Shown in pieces: positions 11,629-32,746 of a stretch of DNA of 32,746 bases (positions are counted from its first letter, which is position 1; every line of letters begins with the position of its first letter). Origin of the DNA: an uncultured SAR116 cluster alpha proteobacterium (GTDB lineage Bacteria; Pseudomonadota; Alphaproteobacteria; Puniceispirillales; Puniceispirillaceae); the NCBI GenBank assembly GCA_902523435.1, contig CABYZM010000018.1, forward strand, positions 1 to 32,746, in the 5' to 3' direction. Position numbers and translations under genes: made by a program. The notes beneath the pieces are model-generated. The model had not been told where the DNA came from. It did not search any database and saw only the letters and a program-made list of their open reading frames with translations.

Positions 11629-11749
11629 CTCTATTCCTTGAGGAAAATTTTTGTTGCCTTCTCTTCAATAAACACCTTTCAAACTCAACACTAGGCCAAA
11701 TAACTTGCAAAGAAAAAAAGGCAACCATTTTCATAATTCTGCAACAAAC

Positions 11750-11778
11750 TCTTAAACGTTTTGTAACACTTTTGAAAA
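11750..11778 (+). promoter_or_regulatory. Probable Pho box upstream of phnC
   Basis: Half-sites TCTTAAA (11750), TTGTAAC (11761) and TTGAAAA (11772) recur every 11 bp, the PhoB spacing. TTGTAAC matches the box at 27301. It lies in the divergent phnX/phnC region, 54 bp before the phnC ATG. No strong -10 follows, so moderate confidence. Confidence 0.4.
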
Positions 11779-17630: not shown

Positions 17631-18343
17631 GCTGAACTGTCCTCGTCTACTACAAAGGCAATATGATTGGCCGAAAAGAGGCTAGTGCCGAATTCAATAG
17701 GAACATTATTTGACTGGTTCAAACTGCGGGTTCGCAAGAGCGGATCTCCGACCTGACAAGCTAGATGGATCGCGGTTTCAGGTGTTGCTAAAACTGCGGT
17801 AATCTCAGTGCGTTGGCGTTCATAATCCAAAATATTGCACGCGGCAAGTGCTGTTGAAATGGACCCTGCTGATTCGAGCGCTTCGATGAAGCCATCAAGT
17901 GGTGCTGCTGGAAATATGCTGGTGAAATGGGTGATCGGGATATTGTTTGAAAGTCCGATCCCCTCGACGACATGAACTTCGGCAGTTCTACCCAAGGCAA
18001 GATTTTCCAGCTCAATCTTGTCGGCATGACGTGTTTCAAGTCGCAGAAAGCGGAGTGTCGGAGCTTGCTGTGCATGAACTAGGTTTTTCGAAAACCGTGT
18101 TTTCCGACCGATTTTGTAGGTCATTGGTTTCGTGGCAACAAAGATGCCGGAACCACGTCTGGAATAGACAATGCCATGGTCACGCAATTCAGTTATAGCA
18201 TGCCGTACAGTATGACGATTTACCCCAAACCGGCAAGCAAGCTCTGTTTCGGTTGGCAGTTTTTCCCCCGGCTTGTAATGGCCAGTCGCAATCTCTTCAT
18301 GCAACCGGTCGTGAATAGAACGCCATAGCATCGATTTTGTCAC
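17627..18343 (-). CDS. phnF: GntR-family repressor of phosphonate genes
   Basis: A 238-residue HutC-subfamily GntR regulator. The N-terminal winged helix reads GHYKPGEKLPTETELACRFGVNRHTVRHAI (about 21-50), followed by RRGSGIFVA. The C-terminal UTRA domain spans about 85-235. Similarity of the start (WRSIHDRLHEEI) and position to PhnF is clear. GTG 18343 is the likely start; an in-frame ATG at 18331 would still keep the HTH. It is divergent from phnG, so the 90-bp region between them should hold its operator and both promoters. Confidence 0.9.
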   Translation of the reverse strand: MTKSMLWRSIHDRLHEEIATGHYKPGEKLPTETELACRFGVNRHTVRHAITELRDHGIVYSRRGSGIFVATKPMTYKIGRKTRFSKNLVHAQQAPTLRFLRLETRHADKIELENLALGRTAEVHVVEGIGLSNNIPITHFTSIFPAAPLDGFIEALESAGSISTALAACNILDYERQRTEITAVLATPETAIHLACQVGDPLLRTRSLNQSNNVPIEFGTSLFSANHIAFVVDEDSSA

Positions 18344-18371
18344 GAAAACTTAACATAATGTCTGTTGAGTA

Positions 18372-18415
18372 ACTATAGCAATACAATTATTATTAGTCTA
18401 GTTGTATAGTATAAT
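18372..18415 (+). promoter_or_regulatory. phnG promoter with possible PhnF operator
   Basis: TATAAT at 18410-18415 is a consensus -10, 18 bp before the phnG ATG. Overlapping it are inverted arms ACTATA (18372-18377) / TATAGT (18405-18410) and ATACAA (18381-18386) / TTGTAT (18402-18407). GTATAG in the right arm resembles the core of known PhnF operators. A repressor bound here would block both divergent promoters. Confidence 0.38.
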
Positions 18416-24092: not shown

Positions 24093-24175
24093 TTATTTGC
24101 TCTCCTGAAGAGGGTTTCACCTAAATGTAATAATAAACAATTATAAACGTTGTAATAAAAATCTGTGACAGAAAC

Positions 24176-26387: not shown

Positions 26388-26416
26388 CTGTCATTGCGTT
26401 TCATCAGAAAAGAAAA
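26388..26416 (+). promoter_or_regulatory. Possible Pho box ahead of direct repeat copy 1
   Basis: CTGTCAT (26388-26394), an exact Pho half-site, is followed 11 bp later by TTTCATC and then a weak third site. A candidate -10 is in TAGCTAAAAC (about 26423). It points into the repeat at 26476. Confidence 0.32.
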
Positions 26417-26494
26417 GGAATAGCTAAAACATGAGCAAAAGTGTTCAAAAATGCCGTTCAAGTGTCCGATTTATTCAATCAAATTAGATGTTAA

Positions 26495-26580
26495 TTGCTG
26501 GCGATTTAAGAGTCACTGAGTCAGTGAGTTGACTATGGGTGGTGTCTACACCGCCAGCTAGGCGCAAGATGGCTCTCTGT
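26495..26580 (+). ncRNA. Structured RNA candidate, copy 1
   Basis: An outer stem AGAGTCA (26509-26515) / TGGCTCT (26570-26576), a palindrome CACTGA-G-TCAGTG (26514-26526) and a hairpin GGTGGT (26538-26543) / ACCGCC (26550-26555) are visible. The outer stem and hairpin use G-U pairs that only work on the plus strand. The outer stem and the palindrome share two bases, so they may alternate. A diverged homologue at 28534-28641 keeps the hairpin. No terminator is seen downstream. Confidence 0.38.
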
Positions 26581-26681
26581 GAGTATGAATCGGCAAATCT
26601 AAAAACCGTGAATTACTGTCAATCGTATGGCTGGCTACTTACGCTTATTAATAAATTCCAATAGTACGATGGTAAGTTTTT

Positions 26682-26831
26682 TCATGATGATATGAAGAAA
26701 TGGTATGCCAGACCACCTACCAGAATACCCTTGATGAAAGAAATCCATGCAACCCCGTGGTCTGAAATTCCAAGTGTTTTCTTCCACCAGTTTATTTGTC
26801 TTTTCTCCCAATCAATATAGCGCGCTATCAT
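26682..26831 (-). CDS. 49-aa membrane-type small protein, copy 1
   Basis: ATG 26831 is preceded by AAAAGGAGTTCAAGAAG, a strong ribosome site. The product has a basic, Trp-rich N-terminal half (IDWEKRQINWWKKTLGI) and a hydrophobic C-terminal helix (WISFIKGILVGGLAYHFFI) ending at the stop. That is the look of a small inner-membrane protein or type-I-toxin-like peptide. An identical gene lies at 30132-30281. A Pho-box-like set (26853-26881) overlaps its promoter region. No family is recognised. Confidence 0.55.
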   Translation of the reverse strand: MIARYIDWEKRQINWWKKTLGISDHGVAWISFIKGILVGGLAYHFFISS

Positions 26832-26852
26832 CTTCTTGAACTCCTTTTACAA

Positions 26853-26881
26853 TTCAAGAATTATCAAAACCCTTTGTAAAG
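26853..26881 (-). promoter_or_regulatory. Pho-box-like promoter of the 49-aa gene, copy 1
   Basis: On the minus strand CTTTACA, GTTTTGA and TCTTGAA occur at 11-bp steps, paralleling the box at 30433-30461 (CTGTCAT, CTTTAAC, CCCTTGC). An alternative reading is TTGACC with GATAAT as -35/-10. The same sequence is in repeat copy 2. Confidence 0.35.
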
Positions 26882-26902
26882 TGAAGGTCAACGCTTGCAG
26901 CC

Positions 26903-26954
26903 AAAAAAAGCCCCGCAGAAAGTCTGGGAAGGCTTGTACGGGGCATCAGGTAAT
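26903..26954 (-). ncRNA. Predicted short Pho-controlled RNA with terminator (copy 1)
   Basis: On the minus strand a CATCTA -10 (26961-26966) lies 10 bp after the Pho box at 26977-27005. Transcription from about 26954 would give a roughly 52-nt RNA ending in GCCCCG...CGGGGC (26910-26915/26939-26944) plus seven T. The loop is pyrimidine-rich (CTTCCC). There is no room for a gene. The terminator lies in the 474-bp repeat while the promoter lies outside it. Confidence 0.5.
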
Positions 26955-26976
26955 GTGACTTAGATGGTAAAAAGGT

Positions 26977-27005
26977 ACAAGAGTTTTATTAAAAATTTAT
27001 GACAC
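26977..27005 (-). promoter_or_regulatory. Pho box (minus strand)
   Basis: Half-sites GTGTCAT, TTTTAAT and CTCTTGT at 11-bp period on the minus strand, followed after 10 bp by CATCTA. The geometry is the same as in four other minus-strand boxes of this region. Confidence 0.5.
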
Positions 27006-27007
27006 GG

Positions 27008-27118
27008 ACAAACGAAAGCCCCGCAGAAAATAAAGGGAGGAAAACACTGCGAGGCTCTAGCTTGTCACGGGACATCGAAGGATGATGGCCTGGACGCTAC
27101 CTTAATTTCATCACGTCC
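27008..27118 (-). ncRNA. Predicted Pho-controlled RNA with CCTCCC terminator loop
   Basis: A minus-strand transcript from about 27118 (TGTCAC -10 at 27125-27130) to the hairpin AGCCTCGCAG / CTGCGGGGCT (27047-27056/27017-27026). Its one G-U pair is only possible on the minus strand. The loop contains GTGTTTTCCTCCC, complementary to a Shine-Dalgarno site. The tail is TTTCGTTT. It is paralogous to the unit ending at 30811. Confidence 0.48.
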
Positions 27119-27140
27119 ATGCTAGTGACAATACCTTAAT

Positions 27141-27169
27141 GCCAGTGATTTATTAAAACCCTATGACAA
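27141..27169 (-). promoter_or_regulatory. Pho box (minus strand)
   Basis: TTGTCAT, TTTTAAT and CACTGGC at 11-bp steps, then a 10-bp gap to TGTCAC. Just upstream is a block (AATGAGTATGGGAAAGAGC) that is conserved ahead of the boxes at 30433 and 30890. Confidence 0.5.
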
Positions 27170-27196
27170 TTGCTCTTTCCCATACTCATTTTTAGC

Positions 27197-27310
27197 AAAA
27201 AAGCCTCACTGGATAACCAATAAGGCATGGAGTTTGCAATCAGGGAGAAGTGACCTGAGCCACTCCTATGTTGCTCATTCCACAATAGAGTAACGGCTCA
27301 GTGTCACACT
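27197..27310 (-). ncRNA. Predicted two-hairpin RNA, copy 1
   Basis: On the minus strand a long hairpin (27250-27307: CTGAGCC with GGCTCAG, inner GTTGCTC with GAGTAAC) is followed by a terminator GCCTTATTGG/CCAGTGAGGC (27203-27226) and TTTTTT. The terminator stem needs two G-U pairs that exist only on the minus strand. The homologue at 30946-31060 has the same architecture with different, compensating stem bases. Confidence 0.5.
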
Positions 27311-27345
27311 TTTGTAACATTCTCCAATACTCGACTATGTTAGAT
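27301..27345 (+). promoter_or_regulatory. Pho box and -10 for the 97-aa gene
   Basis: GTGTCAC (27301), TTGTAAC (27312) and TCCAATA (27323) at 11-bp period; 10 bp later TTAGAT (27340-27345) as -10. It points to the gene at 27411. It overlaps the base of the minus-strand hairpin RNA. Confidence 0.5.
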
Positions 27346-27410
27346 TTTCTAATGATTGAACCAAAGCACAAAAGGCTGGCCTATACGCTCTTTTTACTGG
27401 GAGACCGAAA

Positions 27411-27704
27411 ATGCAAAAAGTAATCGCAAATATGTGGAATGGGGTAATGGACCACAGAATAAACCCACTTAGACATATCGATGATTTGCAAACACGACAC
27501 ATAGTGATGCAGTTTCTTGCGTGGATGTGGTGTATCATCTTTTCTACGAGCATTGGGTCTATGACTGTGTTCGGAATTAGCGCAGTTGCTCATGCTTTAC
27601 TAATAGCCGGTGTTGTAGTTACAGTTGCCACGTTCAAGGTAGCGCAATACCGCCCCAATAGTTTTGCTCAGCTCGCCAGAGGAGCTGGGGGTGAACACGA
27701 ATAA
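27411..27704 (+). CDS. Small membrane protein (97 aa), Pho-promoter linked
   Basis: ATG 27411 follows GGGAGACCGAAA. The product has a polar N-terminus with several His and Arg, then two hydrophobic helices, about residues 33-52 (MQFLAWMWCIIFSTSIGSM) and 54-76 (FGISAVAHALLIAGVVVTVATF), and a polar Gly/Glu tail. It is probably a small inner-membrane protein; I recognise no family. The transcript should start near 27352, under the Pho box at 27301, and end at the hairpin at 27752. Confidence 0.6.
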   Translation: MQKVIANMWNGVMDHRINPLRHIDDLQTRHIVMQFLAWMWCIIFSTSIGSMTVFGISAVAHALLIAGVVVTVATFKVAQYRPNSFAQLARGAGGEHE

Positions 27705-27751
27705 ATAAAAGAAATTACATACCTCCCTATATGTACTTCGTTTTTCATCAA

Positions 27752-27781
27752 GCCTCGTTGGTCTTCCGGTGGGGCTTTTCA
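27752..27781 (+). terminator. Terminator after the 97-aa gene
   Basis: AGCCTCGTTGG (27752-27762), loop TCTT, CCGGTGGGGCT (27767-27777), then TTTTC. All 11 pairs form on the plus strand, four of them G-U, which fixes the direction. It shares the GCCTCG/GGGGC stem theme with the minus-strand RNAs. Confidence 0.6.
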
Positions 27782-27809
27782 AGCCAATAGTGCGACAATA
27801 AAGCAGTAG

Positions 27810-27877
27810 TCGCCTATCAGGCGAACACTAGGTTAAAGTGGGAAAAAATGGGCCTCGCTGCGTAGGACAGCGGGGTC
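27810..27877 (+). other. Two hairpins in the pseudoazurin leader region
   Basis: TCGCCT-ATC-AGGCGA (27810-27824) and GGCCTCGCTG / CAGCGGGGTC (27851-27877) form on the plus strand, the second using G-U pairs. Neither has a T-tract. TTGACA at 27886 may be the pseudoazurin -35. They could be leader structure or a decayed member of the small-RNA family. Confidence 0.3.
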
Positions 27878-27921
27878 TACCTGTCTTGACAAAATTTAGG
27901 CAACCAGCACAAGGGTCTAAG

Positions 27922-28341
27922 ATGAAATTATATGTCTTCATGATTACGGCATTTCTATCCACACCTTCCTTCGGAGCCGACATTTCAATTGAAATGCTTA
28001 ACAAGGACGCTAACGGGAATAAAATGGTCTACAGTCAAGAAGTTGCCAAAATAGACGTTGGTGAGACCATAACATGGCTTCCAGCTTCAAAAGGCCACAA
28101 CGTGGAAATAATTTCATCTCCCAACAAGATGAAGTTTAAATCTAAGAATGGCAAAGAAGTCAAAATAACTTTTGATACCCCAGGGATTTACTACTACTGG
28201 TGCACACCTCACAAGGGCATGGGTATGATTGGCCTGGTGATTGTGGGTGATGATTTGTCGAATATCGACGGTATTGCAAGCGCTAAAGCAATGGGAAAGA
28301 GCAAAAAGAAATTAAAGAATCTCCTTGCCAGTCTGAATTAG
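27922..28341 (+). CDS. Pseudoazurin-type blue copper protein
   Basis: 139 residues from ATG 27922 (AAGG upstream); a longer GTG frame would spoil the signal peptide KLYVFMITAFLSTPSFG. The cupredoxin core shows VGETITWLPASKGHNVE (His ligand near 55) and YYYWCTPHKGMGMIG (Cys, His+3, Met+8), the four type-1 copper ligands of pseudoazurin/plastocyanin-like electron carriers in the periplasm. The Lys-rich C-terminal helix (GKSKKKLKNLLASLN) is typical of pseudoazurins. No reductase partner (nirK, nos) is in the window; the multicopper oxidase is 26 kb away. Confidence 0.9.
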   Translation: MKLYVFMITAFLSTPSFGADISIEMLNKDANGNKMVYSQEVAKIDVGETITWLPASKGHNVEIISSPNKMKFKSKNGKEVKITFDTPGIYYYWCTPHKGMGMIGLVIVGDDLSNIDGIASAKAMGKSKKKLKNLLASLN

Positions 28342-28385
28342 TTCGGGCTGATCCAACCTCATTACATTATTTAATGGAGACAACT

Positions 28386-28511
28386 ATGTTTTTAATAGCA
28401 AAACTGAATTTGATTTCTGGTATGTTGATTGGTGCGGCTGCCGTGTTAACTATGAAGCAGATGTGCAAGCATAAGAGAAGCTCAATGCCAACTGATACAC
28501 CGCAAGAATAA
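28386..28511 (+). CDS. 41-aa single-helix protein downstream of pseudoazurin
   Basis: ATG 28386 is preceded by GGAGA (28376-28380). The product has one hydrophobic helix (LNLISGMLIGAAAVLTM) followed by a basic then polar tail, as in a small inner-membrane protein. It lies 44 bp after pseudoazurin in the same direction and may be co-transcribed. No family recognised. Confidence 0.5.
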   Translation: MFLIAKLNLISGMLIGAAAVLTMKQMCKHKRSSMPTDTPQE

Positions 28512-28533
28512 GTTCACCACTTGACAAAGGAAA

Positions 28534-28641
28534 GCCATTTCAAGACTAACAGAGAGTCATCTTGTGCCTGACTGGTGGTAAAGAGACACCACCCACAGTC
28601 AACTGACTGACTCAGTGGCTCCTAAATCGCCAGCAAATGGC
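28534..28641 (-). ncRNA. Diverged, inverted homologue of the structured RNA in the direct repeats
   Basis: On the minus strand about 90 nt align with 26495-26580, sharing TGCTGGCGATTTA, CACTGAGTCAGT, GGGTGGTGTCT and CAAGATG.CTCTCTGT. The central hairpin is GGTGGT with ACCACC (instead of ACCGCC) and an 8-nt loop. A further outer stem GCCATTT/AAATGGC closes this copy. Substitutions that keep pairing suggest a functional RNA. Confidence 0.45.
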
Positions 28642-28689
28642 ACATTTAAGCCCCTTGGGAACACTTACTCATTCCTTTGGGTCTTCTTT

Positions 28690-28731
28690 CGTCATCTAAT
28701 TGCAACAAAGAAACGATAATAGAAGTATACT
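28690..28731 (+). promoter_or_regulatory. Pho box and -10 (plus strand)
   Basis: CGTCATC (28690), TGCAACA (28701) and AACGATA (28712) at 11-bp steps; TATACT at 28726-28731 is a good -10. Start expected near 28738. Confidence 0.45.
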
Positions 28732-28737
28732 CATTAA

Positions 28738-28791
28738 GCTAGTCGCCCCATCGTGCAACTGCCCTCGTTACATGATGGGGCGTCTTTTTCC
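28738..28791 (+). ncRNA. Short RNA or attenuator ahead of the 94-aa gene
   Basis: From the predicted start a roughly 53-nt RNA ends with CGCCCCATC (28744-28752) / GATGGGGCG (28774-28782) and TCTTTTT. The loop holds GCCCTC. It is the plus-strand counterpart of the short minus-strand RNAs. Because the 94-aa gene starts only 30 bp later, the terminator could attenuate that gene. Confidence 0.5.
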
Positions 28792-28820
28792 TCAGAATGG
28801 ATTGTAAATTGGAGAAAACC

Positions 28821-29105
28821 ATGAGCAGAAAACTAAGCATAATCCGCTTCAAACCAAAGCCTGAGCATTACGACCAATTTCTTACGGATGTTCTGGAAAA
28901 CCATAAAGACAAAGACCCAAACACACGTTTTGCCGTAAGTGCTGGTGATGAAGTCATAGTAGTAGCGATAAGAGATGCTGATGGCTTTGAGCAAAGCGCA
29001 AAAGACGGCGTAGTAAATTGGTTGGATGAGCGACGTCCAATGTTACAGGAGTATGACCCTGTAAACAGACATACGCTGCCGCTTACTGGAGATTTGGTAG
29101 AATAG
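28821..29105 (+). CDS. Small hypothetical protein, ABM-like (94 aa)
   Basis: ATG 28821 is preceded by GGAGAAAACC; an earlier in-frame ATG at 28797 lies too close to the terminator. The 94 residues alternate strand and helix: LSIIRFKPKPEHYDQFLTDVLE, then DEVIVVAIRDADGFEQS. That resembles the dimeric alpha/beta-barrel (ABM/monooxygenase-like) fold by pattern only. It follows the Pho box and terminator at 28690-28791. Confidence 0.62.
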   Translation: MSRKLSIIRFKPKPEHYDQFLTDVLENHKDKDPNTRFAVSAGDEVIVVAIRDADGFEQSAKDGVVNWLDERRPMLQEYDPVNRHTLPLTGDLVE

Positions 29106-29174
29106 ACAAATAAATCTATCACCATGATACAGACTAAGATGCATGAAAAGATAAGGGGTCTTGGATTGATAATT

Positions 29175-29705
29175 TCAAATAAAATCAGAAAATAAAATTG
29201 CTGCGGCGGGGAGAAGACCGACAGCTGCTGTGAAGTAGGCACTTCTAAGCATTATATATTTATTCTTCAAAGCAAATCCCATGTCGTAAAAATCATTTAA
29301 AATCAATTTATAAACTAGTTCGGGCTTCTCCATGTTTTCAAGCATAATCGCATTGAACGCTTCCTTGTCCATGGTTAAGAAATGCATAAAATACAGAGGA
29401 TTGTGCGCTTTAGGTAAAAAACCACTTCGCACTTTTGACCCGAGTCTTGGCACTATCACAAGTAGTGACATAAGCACGGCTATTGTTTCTGTTACGCAGA
29501 ACACACCAAAAGCTATCTTCGCAATTTCATTATCCAGGTCGTTCATCGCCATATTTGAAACGATTACACTGAGGGCGACCAGAATAATGCCCATCAACAT
29601 GTTTGCTTTCTGGTCCGCTAAAACTGTCAACTGAACCTGTTTCATGTGTGCATTTCGCAACATGCCAATGGTTTCTTTGTCAATTTTATCAAAACGGTCA
29701 ACCAC
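29175..29705 (-). CDS. PycTM/DUF5706-like membrane protein
   Basis: 176 residues. LTVLADQKANMLMGIILVALSVIVSN (about 26-51) is the signature of DUF5706, the membrane effector domain of Pycsar antiphage systems (PycTM). A second helix lies at about 64-87 and a third near the C-terminus (AYFTAAVGLLPAAAILF). GTG 29705 starts the helix before the signature; an ATG 42 bases in would still retain it. A Pycsar effector normally pairs with a uridylate or cytidylate cyclase; none is encoded within this window. It may be an orphan or have another role. Confidence 0.62.
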   Translation of the reverse strand: MVDRFDKIDKETIGMLRNAHMKQVQLTVLADQKANMLMGIILVALSVIVSNMAMNDLDNEIAKIAFGVFCVTETIAVLMSLLVIVPRLGSKVRSGFLPKAHNPLYFMHFLTMDKEAFNAIMLENMEKPELVYKLILNDFYDMGFALKNKYIMLRSAYFTAAVGLLPAAAILFSDFI

Positions 29706-29838
29706 TCTTAAATTACCTAGTTAACAATTGTAATTGATAAGGTTTCCAAAATATTTTTAAGCTACAATGTTACTACCAGAATATTTCAATTTTGTTAAAA
29801 CATGCCAAAATCTGTCCCTGAATACTGCTGGGTGTTCT

Positions 29839-29860
29839 CCTCTATAGTTAATTATAGAGG
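29839..29860. other. Perfect hairpin upstream of direct repeat copy 2
   Basis: CCTCTATA / TATAGAGG (8 bp) with loop GTTAAT, in a gene-free 220 bp. There is no T-tract, so it is more likely an operator or structural element than a terminator. Confidence 0.3.
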
Positions 29861-29899
29861 TAGATGTTGGTCGTCTGCTAAGGTGCTATCTGAATATTG

Positions 29900-29928
29900 T
29901 TGTCATTCAGAGTTGACTGACGTTGGAC
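29900..29928 (+). promoter_or_regulatory. Pho box ahead of direct repeat copy 2
   Basis: TTGTCAT (29900), AGTTGAC (29911) and GTTGGAC (29922) at 11-bp period. Ten bases later is GATGTT, with TTAGAT overlapping, as -10. It would drive the plus-strand structured RNA. Confidence 0.42.
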
Positions 29929-29946
29929 AATCAAATTAGATGTTAA

Positions 29947-30033
29947 TTGCTGGCGATTTAAGAGTCACTGAGTCAGTGAGTTGACTATGGGTGGTGTCTA
30001 CCGCCAGCTAGGCGCAAGATGGCTCTCTGTGAG
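29947..30033 (+). ncRNA. Structured RNA candidate, copy 2
   Basis: Same stems as copy 1. The two-base deletion shortens the GGTGGT/ACCGCC hairpin loop from six to four bases and leaves the stem intact. Confidence 0.38.
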
Positions 30034-30131
30034 TATGAATCGGCAAATCTAAAAACCGTGAATTACTGTCAATCGTATGGCTGGCTACTTACGCTTATTA
30101 ATAAATTCCAATAGTACGATGGTAAGTTTTT

Positions 30132-30281
30132 TCATGATGATATGAAGAAATGGTATGCCAGACCACCTACCAGAATACCCTTGATGAAAGAAATCCATGC
30201 AACCCCGTGGTCTGAAATTCCAAGTGTTTTCTTCCACCAGTTTATTTGTCTTTTCTCCCAATCAATATAGCGCGCTATCAT
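30132..30281 (-). CDS. 49-aa membrane-type small protein, copy 2
   Basis: Identical in sequence and ribosome site to the gene at 26682-26831. The frame is intact in both copies, and the only difference between the repeats falls outside it. See copy 1 for the protein features. Confidence 0.55.
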   Translation of the reverse strand: MIARYIDWEKRQINWWKKTLGISDHGVAWISFIKGILVGGLAYHFFISS

Positions 30282-30352
30282 CTTCTTGAACTCCTTTTAC
30301 AATTCAAGAATTATCAAAACCCTTTGTAAAGTGAAGGTCAACGCTTGCAGCC

Positions 30353-30410
30353 AAAAAAAGCCCCGCAGAAAGTCTGGGAAGGCTTGTACGGGGCATCAGT
30401 GTCACAGGAA
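30353..30410 (-). ncRNA. Predicted short Pho-controlled RNA with terminator (copy 2)
   Basis: The same terminator as copy 1 (30360-30365/30389-30394 plus T7), but the 5' part lies outside the repeat and differs. TATCAC (30417-30422) is the -10, 10 bp after the Pho box at 30433. Predicted length is about 58 nt. Confidence 0.5.
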
Positions 30411-30432
30411 AGCTTTGTGATAAAAATAAAAT

Positions 30433-30461
30433 GCAAGGGTTTCGTTAAAGTCTTATGACAG
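30433..30461 (-). promoter_or_regulatory. Pho box (minus strand), best match in the window
   Basis: CTGTCAT-AAGA-CTTTAAC, then GAAA and CCCTTGC, read on the minus strand: three half-sites at 11-bp period, the first an exact consensus. The AATGAG.ATGGGAA.GAGC block precedes it. Confidence 0.58.
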
Positions 30462-30500
30462 CCGCTCATTCCCATACTCATTATCATTGTAAACTAACAG

Positions 30501-30701
30501 CTATCCAAAATGCTCTACACCCCCGTCCTCAGAGGGAAATTTGTTGTCATTTTCTTCTGGGCCAAACTCTGGCCTGATGTCATAATCTAATGTAGGGTCT
30601 GTAGGGTCATTTTTGATAAATGCATTCTTAGGTAACGGCCTTGGAAACCCACAATCATGGCCAGTAGGAGTGTTGTCATTAATTAATAGTCTCTTAGGCA
30701 T
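30501..30701 (-). CDS. Acidic, proline-rich small protein (66 aa)
   Basis: ATG 30701 has AAGGAG at ideal spacing. The product is hydrophilic, rich in Pro, Asp and Asn (DPTDPTLDYD, FGPEENDNKFPSEDGG) and probably largely disordered; no signal peptide or helix. It lies between two small-RNA units and under its own Pho-type promoter (30729-30773), so it is likely expressed under phosphate stress. No family recognised. Confidence 0.55.
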   Translation of the reverse strand: MPKRLLINDNTPTGHDCGFPRPLPKNAFIKNDPTDPTLDYDIRPEFGPEENDNKFPSEDGGVEHFG

Positions 30702-30728
30702 TCTTGCGACTCCTTCGTTGTAAACGTT

Positions 30729-30773
30729 GTGATGCCTTTCTGTTAGTAAGGAACCATTTCATATTTTTGACAG
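30729..30773 (-). promoter_or_regulatory. Pho-type promoter of the 66-aa gene
   Basis: Minus strand: CTGTCAA, ATGAAAT and CCTTACT at 11-bp steps, exactly 10 bp, then CATCAC. This spacing and -10 are identical to those of the 30890 promoter. Start near 30722, giving a 20-nt leader with the ribosome site. Confidence 0.5.
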
Positions 30774-30809
30774 GGATTTAAATTTCATAAAACCTTAACT
30801 CGATGAAAG

Positions 30810-30867
30810 AAAAAGCCTCGCAGTTTGTCTGGAGGAAAACACAGCGAGGCTTTTGATTATAACGGGA
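30810..30867 (-). ncRNA. Predicted Pho-controlled RNA with CCTCC terminator loop
   Basis: From a CATCAC -10 (30874-30879) an RNA of about 58 nt ends in the hairpin GCCTCGC/GCGAGGC (30844-30850/30815-30821) with TTTTTC. The loop starts GTGTTTTCCTCC, as in the unit at 27008-27118. The stem extends through A/T on both sides and could also terminate plus-strand transcripts. Confidence 0.5.
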
Positions 30868-30889
30868 AAACTAGTGATGGTAAGCGAAT

Positions 30890-30918
30890 ACTAGAGTTTT
30901 GTGTAAATCTTATGACAG
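30890..30918 (-). promoter_or_regulatory. Pho box (minus strand)
   Basis: CTGTCAT, TTTACAC and CTCTAGT at 11-bp period, 10 bp, CATCAC. Confidence 0.55.
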
Positions 30919-30945
30919 CAGCTCTTTCCCATGCTCATTTTGAGG

Positions 30946-31060
30946 AAAAAAGCTCCACTGAATGAACAGCGAGGCATGGAAGTTGCAAGCAAGGAAAAGT
31001 AACCCGTGCCACGTCTATGTTATTGCAACCACAAACAATAACGGCACGGGTTCACTCTTT
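30946..31060 (-). ncRNA. Predicted two-hairpin RNA, copy 2
   Basis: A long hairpin AACCCGTGCC/GGCACGGGTT (31001-31010/31043-31052) with inner GTTATTG/CAATAAC, then a terminator GCCTCGCTG/CAGTGGAGC (30952-30975) and T6 on the minus strand. It aligns with 27197-27310. The terminator pairs better on the minus strand (two G-U pairs, one mismatch). The promoter is not clear; TAAAAT near 31068 is a candidate -10. Confidence 0.5.
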
Positions 31061-31176
31061 ATTATTTTAGAAACGTACAAGCAGCCTCATTCAAAGTGCC
31101 TTATCGCAAACCTACTCCATTCGTGTGCTTGAGGAGTAGTGAATTTGCAATTTTTCGTAATAAAGATTTAAAAATT

Positions 31177-31205
31177 TCGTCACGATTTATTAACGCTCAT
31201 CGCCC
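31177..31205 (+). promoter_or_regulatory. Weak Pho-box-like site before the NTF2-like gene
   Basis: TCGTCAC, TATTAAC and ATCGCCC at 11-bp steps, then 10 bp to TTTATT. Matches are partial. Confidence 0.28.
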
Positions 31206-31237
31206 ATCGTTTATCTTTATTTTGACGGAGGTGAGCG

Positions 31238-31576
31238 ATGACATTTGGTCAGAAATTTATAGATAATTTGAGAAAAGGTCATTTAAGTGGCGAGATTCCA
31301 ACTGAATTAGCTGATGCAATGAGTGATGACTTAATTTGGACGTCACTGGCTAAATCTAGCCTTGGCAATCAATCCAGAGGTAAAGAGGAATGGCTCGATT
31401 ATATAAAAAATGATAATGAAGATTATTCATCTGAAATAGTGTATGAAAATGATGAAATCGTGGTTTGGAAGGGTGCCGGAAATATTAATGGAGTGCCTCA
31501 GGTTTTTCTTTTTTGTATGAACATTGAGGGTGAAAAAATTAAATACGTCCAGCATGTCAGAGGTCCTGCTACCTAA
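31238..31576 (+). CDS. NTF2/SnoaL-like small protein (112 aa)
   Basis: ATG 31238 follows GGAGGTGAGCG, a strong ribosome site. The pattern of an N-terminal helix pair, DDLIWTSLAKSSLGNQSRGKEEWLDYI and a strand-rich second half (SEIVYENDEIVVWKGAGNINGVPQVFLFCMNIEGEKIKYVQHVRG) fits the NTF2-like/SnoaL cone fold. Catalytic residues cannot be assigned. It is monocistronic, ended by the hairpin at 31580. Confidence 0.65.
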   Translation: MTFGQKFIDNLRKGHLSGEIPTELADAMSDDLIWTSLAKSSLGNQSRGKEEWLDYIKNDNEDYSSEIVYENDEIVVWKGAGNINGVPQVFLFCMNIEGEKIKYVQHVRGPAT

Positions 31577-31946: not shown

Positions 31947-32746
31947 TCAATTTAATTTTGTTTTTGGCGCAGTATCAAATGATAAATAAGGTTCAACATA
32001 ACGGGCATATTTTGCAGGTTTAAGCTTCTTCAGATCGACCATTACAAATGAGTCTAGACACATTGAAAAGTCTGAGTCGACGTTAAAGGCAGAAAAACTT
32101 ACCCCGCCATAATGGCATAGTTCAGAATACTGCTTGTACAGGGTTGGAACACGCATCTGCATATGGCTTAATTGGTCTCGCAAATTAGCATAATCCTTTT
32201 GTGGGTCATCCCCATCCATCAGTTTTTCCATTTCTGCTATCGCGCTTGTGGAAAGTTTGAAGCCAGCTCTTGGCTCAGCTGTAAAGTGGCTTTCAGGATA
32301 GTAATTTTGATAGTACCACACCAACATATCGCGTGCACGTGCTGGCAAGCTAGCAGATAAAGACACAGGACCGAATAAATAGCGCACTTTGGGGTGTCGC
32401 GCGATATACGCACCTATCCCCTGCCACAAATAATCGAGACTACGCTTACCCCAAAATTGAGGCTGAACAAAACTGCGACCAAGCTCAAGTCCAGCTTCCA
32501 TTACCTCACTAATATTGTTAGCAATTCCATTTTCTGACCCATCACGAAATTTAAACAAGCTTTCTGAATAAAGTCCTTGCGATGGTCTATGAAAATGGTG
32601 TTTCGAATCTACAAAGCAGCTTTCATCCTGTTTGCACCATTTCCACACCTCACCTAAACGGTAAGCTCCAGCAATTTCCAACAAGTCATCATCCCATACT
32701 ATGATATGACGATAATATGCATCATAAAGGTCTGTATCCTTTTTGT
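31947..32746 (-). CDS. GNAT-type N-acyltransferase, OlsB/hemolysin family (5' end cut by the window)
   Basis: The frame continues to the right edge, so the N-terminus is missing; 265 residues are visible. HIIVWDDDLLEIAGAYRLG, LYSESLF, GLELGRSFVQPQFWGKRSLDYLWQGIGAYIARHP and YLFGPVSLSASLP are in the order seen in COG3176 proteins (PF13444), including OlsB, which makes lyso-ornithine lipid from ornithine and 3-hydroxyacyl-ACP. Ornithine lipids replace phospholipids when phosphate is scarce, which would suit this window. Other family members act on different amino acids, so the substrate is inferred. Its C-terminus is hydrophilic. Confidence 0.78.
   Translation of the reverse strand, partial: KKDTDLYDAYYRHIIVWDDDLLEIAGAYRLGEVWKWCKQDESCFVDSKHHFHRPSQGLYSESLFKFRDGSENGIANNISEVMEAGLELGRSFVQPQFWGKRSLDYLWQGIGAYIARHPKVRYLFGPVSLSASLPARARDMLVWYYQNYYPESHFTAEPRAGFKLSTSAIAEMEKLMDGDDPQKDYANLRDQLSHMQMRVPTLYKQYSELCHYGGVSFSAFNVDSDFSMCLDSFVMVDLKKLKPAKYARYVEPYLSFDTAPKTKLN

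Follow-up and report, generated by a model that had tools for sequence, protein, structure and literature searches.

Direct repeats of 11 nt, at least two in number, make up a Pho box (PMC4415409). The features that define alpha-R8 small RNAs are a weak hairpin, UUUCCUCCCU in single-stranded form and a terminator (PMC12559287). The literature that we searched describes no sRNA from SAR116, an abundant ocean clade often found in phosphate-poor water. We analyzed a stretch of 32,746 nt (the window), which is one contig (C18) of a SAR116 MAG of 1.5 Mb that is 64% complete (G000), and which contains an array of Pho promoters coupled to hairpins. Among 101 genomes, the DNA of the array is present only in G000 and in its sister genome G005 (SAR116-cluster MAG AG-894-E05), where it is flanked by pstS, phoB and a fused acyltransferase gene on one side and by the C-P lyase (phn) operon on the other; by the gene order of G005, the array is located in the middle of the Pho regulon. 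The pstS surroundings differ in three other genomes of the genus (G001, G002, and G007), where the array is absent from the pstS neighbourhood, and no plasmid relatives were found. The fused acyltransferase-GNAT gene adjoining phoB and the array (window 31947-32744; L008:6058-7947) possibly has a role in phosphorus-free lipids. The coordinates of the features are collected in Table 1.

Table 1. Features of the promoter array and of the phn promoters in the window. T, position of the T of TGTCA; PWM, score with the independent Pho matrix and, where given, rank in the window.
Feature	Coordinates	Strand	Description
P1	30874..30918	-	CTGTCAT-AAGA-TTTACAC-AAAA-CTCTAGT, 10 bp, CATCAC; T at 30917; PWM 6.8
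P2	30729..30773	-	Pho box, 10 bp, CATCAC; T at 30772; PWM 7.1; precedes 66-aa ORF
P3	30417..30461	-	Pho box, 10 bp, TATCAC; T at 30460; PWM 13.5, rank 3
P4	26961..27005	-	Pho box, 10 bp, CATCTA; T at 27004; PWM 15.7, rank 1
P5	27125..27169	-	Paralogous, doubtful Pho site, TGTCAC; T at 27168; PWM 2.9, rank 36
phnC Pho site	11729..11772	+	PWM 7.9, T/C-A at +38
phnG Pho site	18338..18381	+	PWM 7.8, TAGCAA at +38
phnM Pho site	24115..24158	+	PWM 9.8, TAATAA at +38
H1	30807..30869	-	Leader and terminator hairpin, loop UUUUCCUCCAG
H2	27010..27074	-	Leader and terminator hairpin; exact UUUCCUCCCU in loop, 27034-27043
H3 copy 1	30352..30411	-	Leader and terminator hairpin, loop CCUUCCC, U7
H3 copy 2	26902..26960	-	Leader and terminator hairpin
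HP-A copy 1	30945..31060	-	Two-hairpin alpha-R8-like RNA element
HP-A copy 2	27196..27312	-	Two-hairpin alpha-R8-like RNA element
66-aa ORF behind P2	30504..30701	-	82 aa in G005
49-aa ORF copy 1	30132..30281	-	MIARYIDWEK...
49-aa ORF copy 2	26682..26831	-	
Direct repeat, left copy	26476..26935		Near-identical to right copy
Direct repeat, right copy	29928..30395		Near-identical to left copy

The original prediction, which gave no strand, held that five promoters share three Pho half-sites followed at exactly 10 bp by an unusual -10. All five are on the minus strand, and their alignment bore out the fixed geometry, because the distance from the T of TGTCA to the start of the -10-like hexamer is exactly 38 nt in every one of them. 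The literal pattern TGTCA-N33-NATCAC is found three times in the window vs. 0.10 expected, and none of 100 shuffles reached three. A scan of the whole 1.5-Mb MAG with the same string, as had been proposed, retrieved seven matches, three of them from the array; a control pattern shifted by one base gave five, so that the four matches outside the array are at chance level and the literal string does not retrieve further Pho promoters. The claim of three half-sites stood in part: the first is good in the five promoters and the second in most of them, but the third is degenerate in all (CTCTAGT, CCTTACT, CCCTTGC, CTCTTGT, and CACTGGC). The promoter at 27168 also lacks the A of the -10 and scores weakly with an independent Pho matrix. 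Four of the sites are members of one repeat family (D6), and part of the common spacing is therefore due to shared descent; only 30772 has an unrelated spacer. A conserved AATGAGYATGGG precedes three of the Pho boxes; its interpretation as a coding end is possible for the 82-aa ORF of G005 and was otherwise rejected.

The independent position matrix was derived from the pstS upstream regions of 26 other SAR116 genomes, with the window and G005 excluded; it reads TGTCACAAAACTGTAATATTTCTGTCATA, with a period of 11 bp. We applied it to the window and to the fetched loci; sites in the window were counted at a score of 6.5 or more, and also with a double criterion that further requires T/C-A where the -10 is predicted. 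At four of the five sites, the first two half-sites agree with the matrix, with 27168 failing by score; 27004 (15.7) and 30460 (13.5) rank first and third when both strands of the window are considered. The region 26400-31300 contains eight sites scoring at least 6.5 vs. 0.65 in shuffles (0/500 shuffles reach eight), and five sites with both matrix and geometry vs. 0.09, a number that no shuffle reached; these five are P1 to P4 plus a plus-strand site at 30783. A chance origin of the promoter pattern is thus ruled out by the shuffles, both for the literal pattern and for the matrix combined with the geometry. In the other 26.4 kb of the window, the double criterion retrieved three sites only, which are the promoters of phnC, phnG, and phnM, as anticipated for phn genes. 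The plus-strand site at 30783 (PWM 9.2, CAGTTT at +38) faces H1 from the opposite side, with its -10 inside the hairpin. Additionally, a strong matrix site at 29799 on the minus strand (15.2), upstream of a PycTM (Pycsar-effector-like) gene (29175-29705, minus strand), is devoid of the A2 -10 at the fixed distance.

Downstream of each of P1, P3, P4, and P5 there is a conserved element, H, in which a short leader (consensus TTTCCCGTGACAANC) precedes a terminator hairpin with CCUYCC in its loop. When 136 genomes of the order were searched with a covariance model of H, it retrieved six strong copies (E of 7e-14 or lower), which are the same six sequences used to build it; all six are in the arrays of G000 and G005, behind a Pho site. 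Outside the arrays, the only matches in these 136 genomes were two weak ones, both to ordinary terminators that follow other genes and have no Pho box. The fold of H1 is much better than those of shuffles (z of -4.9; -5.6 in G005), and that of H3 is only marginally better (-1.3 to -1.9). Within the window, the 8-mer TTTCCTCC is present in two places, the loops of H1 and H2, although these are not independent events because both elements are paralogues. The exact alpha-R8 anti-Shine-Dalgarno 10-mer UUUCCUCCCU is found once in the window, in the loop of H2, the U-run of which is interrupted; in comparison with RF00519, this 10-mer is inside the terminator loop and not single-stranded upstream of the terminator. 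The H copies are few, paralogous, and come from two closely related genomes, so that the conservation of the loop is weakly tested. A palindrome of 46 nt (TGGACG...CGTCCA, 27079-27124) is inserted between P5 and H2; it is 92-98% conserved and dispersed in several genomes of the genus (L110, L111, and L112). Between G000 and G005, six of the 25 differing columns (over 2823) fall in a 47-nt stretch of the H1 transcript (30815-30861; L008 9020-9088), and the H1 stem stays stable despite these changes, as a fast-changing hairpin.

We assign a probability of about 0.58 to the reading that these are PhoB-dependent promoters of the usual activator type, four of them convincing and 27168 doubtful, driving a 66-aa mRNA and short sRNAs that end in a terminator. 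The promoter motif and its geometry, the hairpins, the coupling of promoters to hairpins and the Hfq gene, present in the genome, are all backed by computation; we infer PhoB binding, transcription, termination and target pairing. PhoB~P would take the place of a -35 element by occupying the half-sites with their 11-bp period, and the RNA polymerase would melt a weak -10 that lies 10 bp past the last half-site and of which only A2 is required. The promoters lie in an island flanked by pstS-phoB-acyltransferase and by the phn operon. P2, which is followed by a ribosome-binding site and the 66-aa ORF, would produce the mRNA for this protein, found only in G000 and G005 of 61 genomes of the family. 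P1, P3, and P4 would give very short transcripts, of about 55-65 nt, and P5, if active, one of about 115 nt, longer because of the inserted palindrome. Each short transcript would consist of a short leader and a terminator with the CCUYCC anti-Shine-Dalgarno motif in its loop, and the products of P1, P3, P4, and P5 are putative tiny PhoB-induced anti-Shine-Dalgarno sRNAs, which would be induced by phosphate starvation and would depend on Hfq to block ribosome-binding sites. More tentatively, they could be PhoB-switched single-hairpin sRNAs of around 60 nt, with the alpha-R8 seed in the terminator loop, tying phosphate starvation to the carbon and nitrogen sRNA network.

Terminators with GC-rich stems are common and the leaders of small ORFs may contain terminators, which are counterpoints to the sRNA reading. 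Its main rival is that H1 to H3 are leader attenuators or insulating terminators, limiting read-through or separating tandem promoters, and that it is the small ORFs, of 49 and 66 aa, for which the Pho promoters exist. The arrangement fits this, with H3 between P3 or P4 and the 49-aa ORF and H1 between P1 and P2, and the H hairpins resemble common intrinsic terminators, the two weak matches of the model being ordinary gene terminators. However, relatives of the 49-aa ORF in another SAR116 family have neither H nor a Pho box, by which its interpretation as an obligate Pho gene was also rejected, and the CCUYCC loop and the leader, which an insulator does not need, are kept between copies. We consider an attenuator or insulator role possible, if doubtful. 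The 49-aa ORF encodes a conserved small protein, 77-83% identical in that other family (L066, L068, and L070-L079), where its relatives occupy varied locations, sometimes beside a tRNA-like sequence; no viral relatives were found for either this ORF or the 66-aa one.

It appears quite improbable that the plus strand is the active one, with the H loops (AGGGAGGAAAA) acting as a sponge for alpha-R8-like sRNAs as in CrfA of Caulobacter. On that strand, the H loops could indeed pair with the alpha-R8 10-mer by complementarity, a stem-loop rich in G and A is used in this way by CrfA (PMC12559287), and there is the plus-strand Pho-like site at 30783 described above. Nevertheless, the Pho site is on the minus-strand side for all the H copies, H2 has no U-run on the plus strand, and the hairpin would contain the -10 that belongs to the 30783 site.

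The pstS promoters of SAR116 were aligned on columns 1-29 only, and their sorting into those with three or four half-sites was blind to the -10. The hexamer located 10 bp past the last half-site has an A at base 2 in the 16 promoters with four half-sites and in 7/8 of those with three, whereas neighbouring columns have A in 1-7 of the 16; besides A2, no base of the -10 is fixed. Consequently, the retention of an unusual -10 did not hold up, and CATCAC as a special -10 was rejected, being one acceptable form among many. Conversely, the proposal of one regulator and one polymerase configuration gained support, with the same boxes and gap at pstS across SAR116, at phnC, phnG, and phnM, and at phoB in G005. 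The geometry is a general rule of SAR116 Pho promoters, and their architecture is of the standard PhoB type, already known; a gap of 10 bp agrees with E. coli pstS and phoA as well. That the fixed spacing reflects only a recent duplication of one promoter, and not selection, is suggested by the repeat family that includes four of the five sites, but this is the least credible of the alternatives and is largely refuted by the pstS comparison, because the pstS promoters of other genera and those of phnC, phnG, and phnM hold the same distance, as does 30772 with its unrelated spacer.

Just upstream of P1 and P5 there are copies 1 and 2 of another element, HP-A. A model built from eight copies retrieved 21, distributed among 8 genomes out of 136; G000 has six of these copies. 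Among the 21 distinct sequences, 91% of the pair cells are paired and 14 of 23 pairs vary on both sides, figures that are somewhat inflated because the alignment was fitted to the structure; none of 500 shuffles reached the observed covariation, and slid controls dropped to 35-40%. Folds and covariation reveal a hairpin, a single-stranded linker and a Rho-independent terminator; the linker is rich in C and U and, in most copies, approximates YUCCUCCCUUAAGCAAA. The seed UUUCCUCCCU is near-exact in several copies (UUCCUCCCUU) and degenerate in both array copies. The best copies reach 26.5 and 23.3 bits with the Rfam suhB/MmgR (alpha-R8) model, below its gathering cut-off of 41 bits, and no known Rfam RNA was found in the window at E ≤ 1. 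Four genomes of this genus do have canonical alpha-R8 RNAs that score above the cut-off, and none of these copies has a Pho box upstream. HP-A looks, and probably works, like an alpha-R8 sRNA, though it is below the cut-off for membership of the family. Integron attC sites, an idea raised by small ORFs followed by palindromes, were rejected by eye because the ends of the element are not complementary, and are further excluded because HP-A forms two separate hairpins. A second conserved stretch (GCTCCT...AGCGGTTGCGAA-like) occurs 3' of HP-A in four copies from three genera (L115, L125, L117, and L119), with no Rfam match in L117 and L125.

The near-identical 460-bp repeats flank a 3.45-kb segment of G000 that is absent from G005. 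The second HP-A/Pho set is around 72% identical to the first and, therefore, was probably acquired by recombination with a lineage bearing a similar array. The segment also includes a 97-aa membrane-protein-like ORF and a cupredoxin gene (27411-27704 and 27838-28341), with relatives in IMG/VR contigs (L083, L086, L089, and L096) that, judging from their neighbours (clamp loader, gp46-like, and Hsp20), look like T4-like phages; for the 97-aa family there are 23 viral matches, besides many in SAR116 genomes. In several contexts (window 27712-27782, plus strand; L084:4432-4547; L133; L106:1967-2040), including one viral contig (59.5 bits), an HP-A-like element is located immediately downstream of the stop codon of the 97-aa ORF, and is possibly a 3'-UTR sRNA. 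A 53-nt repeat is dispersed in both orientations (26495-26547, 28584-28636, inverted, and 29947-29999; also in L106 and L110), and adjoins the 97-aa ORF in G007 as well.

Like PhoB-dependent promoters (PMC4415409), those of the array have TGTCA half-sites with an 11-bp period, no -35 and a -10 at a fixed distance, and they neighbour pstS, phoB, and phn; unlike typical ones, they show a degenerate third half-site and a weak -10, and several occur in tandem before terminators and small ORFs. HP-A shares with the alpha-R8 sRNAs (MmgR and SisA-D; Rfam RF00519 suhB; PMC7143759, PMC12559287) the same order of hairpin, CU-rich single-stranded linker and terminator, as well as the presence of several copies per genome, and differs in its long, strong first hairpin, its Rfam score below the cut-off and the degenerate seeds of the array copies. 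H2 has the exact alpha-R8 10-mer UUUCCUCCCU, whereas in the H elements the motif is borne by the loop of the terminator. The alpha-R8 RNAs known so far are linked to nitrogen and carbon. As in CrfA of Caulobacter (PMC12559287), the complementary strand of H1 and H2 would show a G/A-rich loop matching the alpha-R8 seed, but this is the wrong strand relative to the Pho promoters, and the inducer of CrfA is carbon starvation rather than lack of phosphate. A clade-wide Pho rule of half-sites and an A2-only -10 would allow Pho regulons to be read from fragmentary marine genomes and, should the hairpin transcripts exist, anti-Shine-Dalgarno sRNAs would be under the direct control of PhoB. The promoter architecture is thus a known one, and what is new is an array of Pho promoters placed before seed-bearing hairpins with a putative role as sRNAs.
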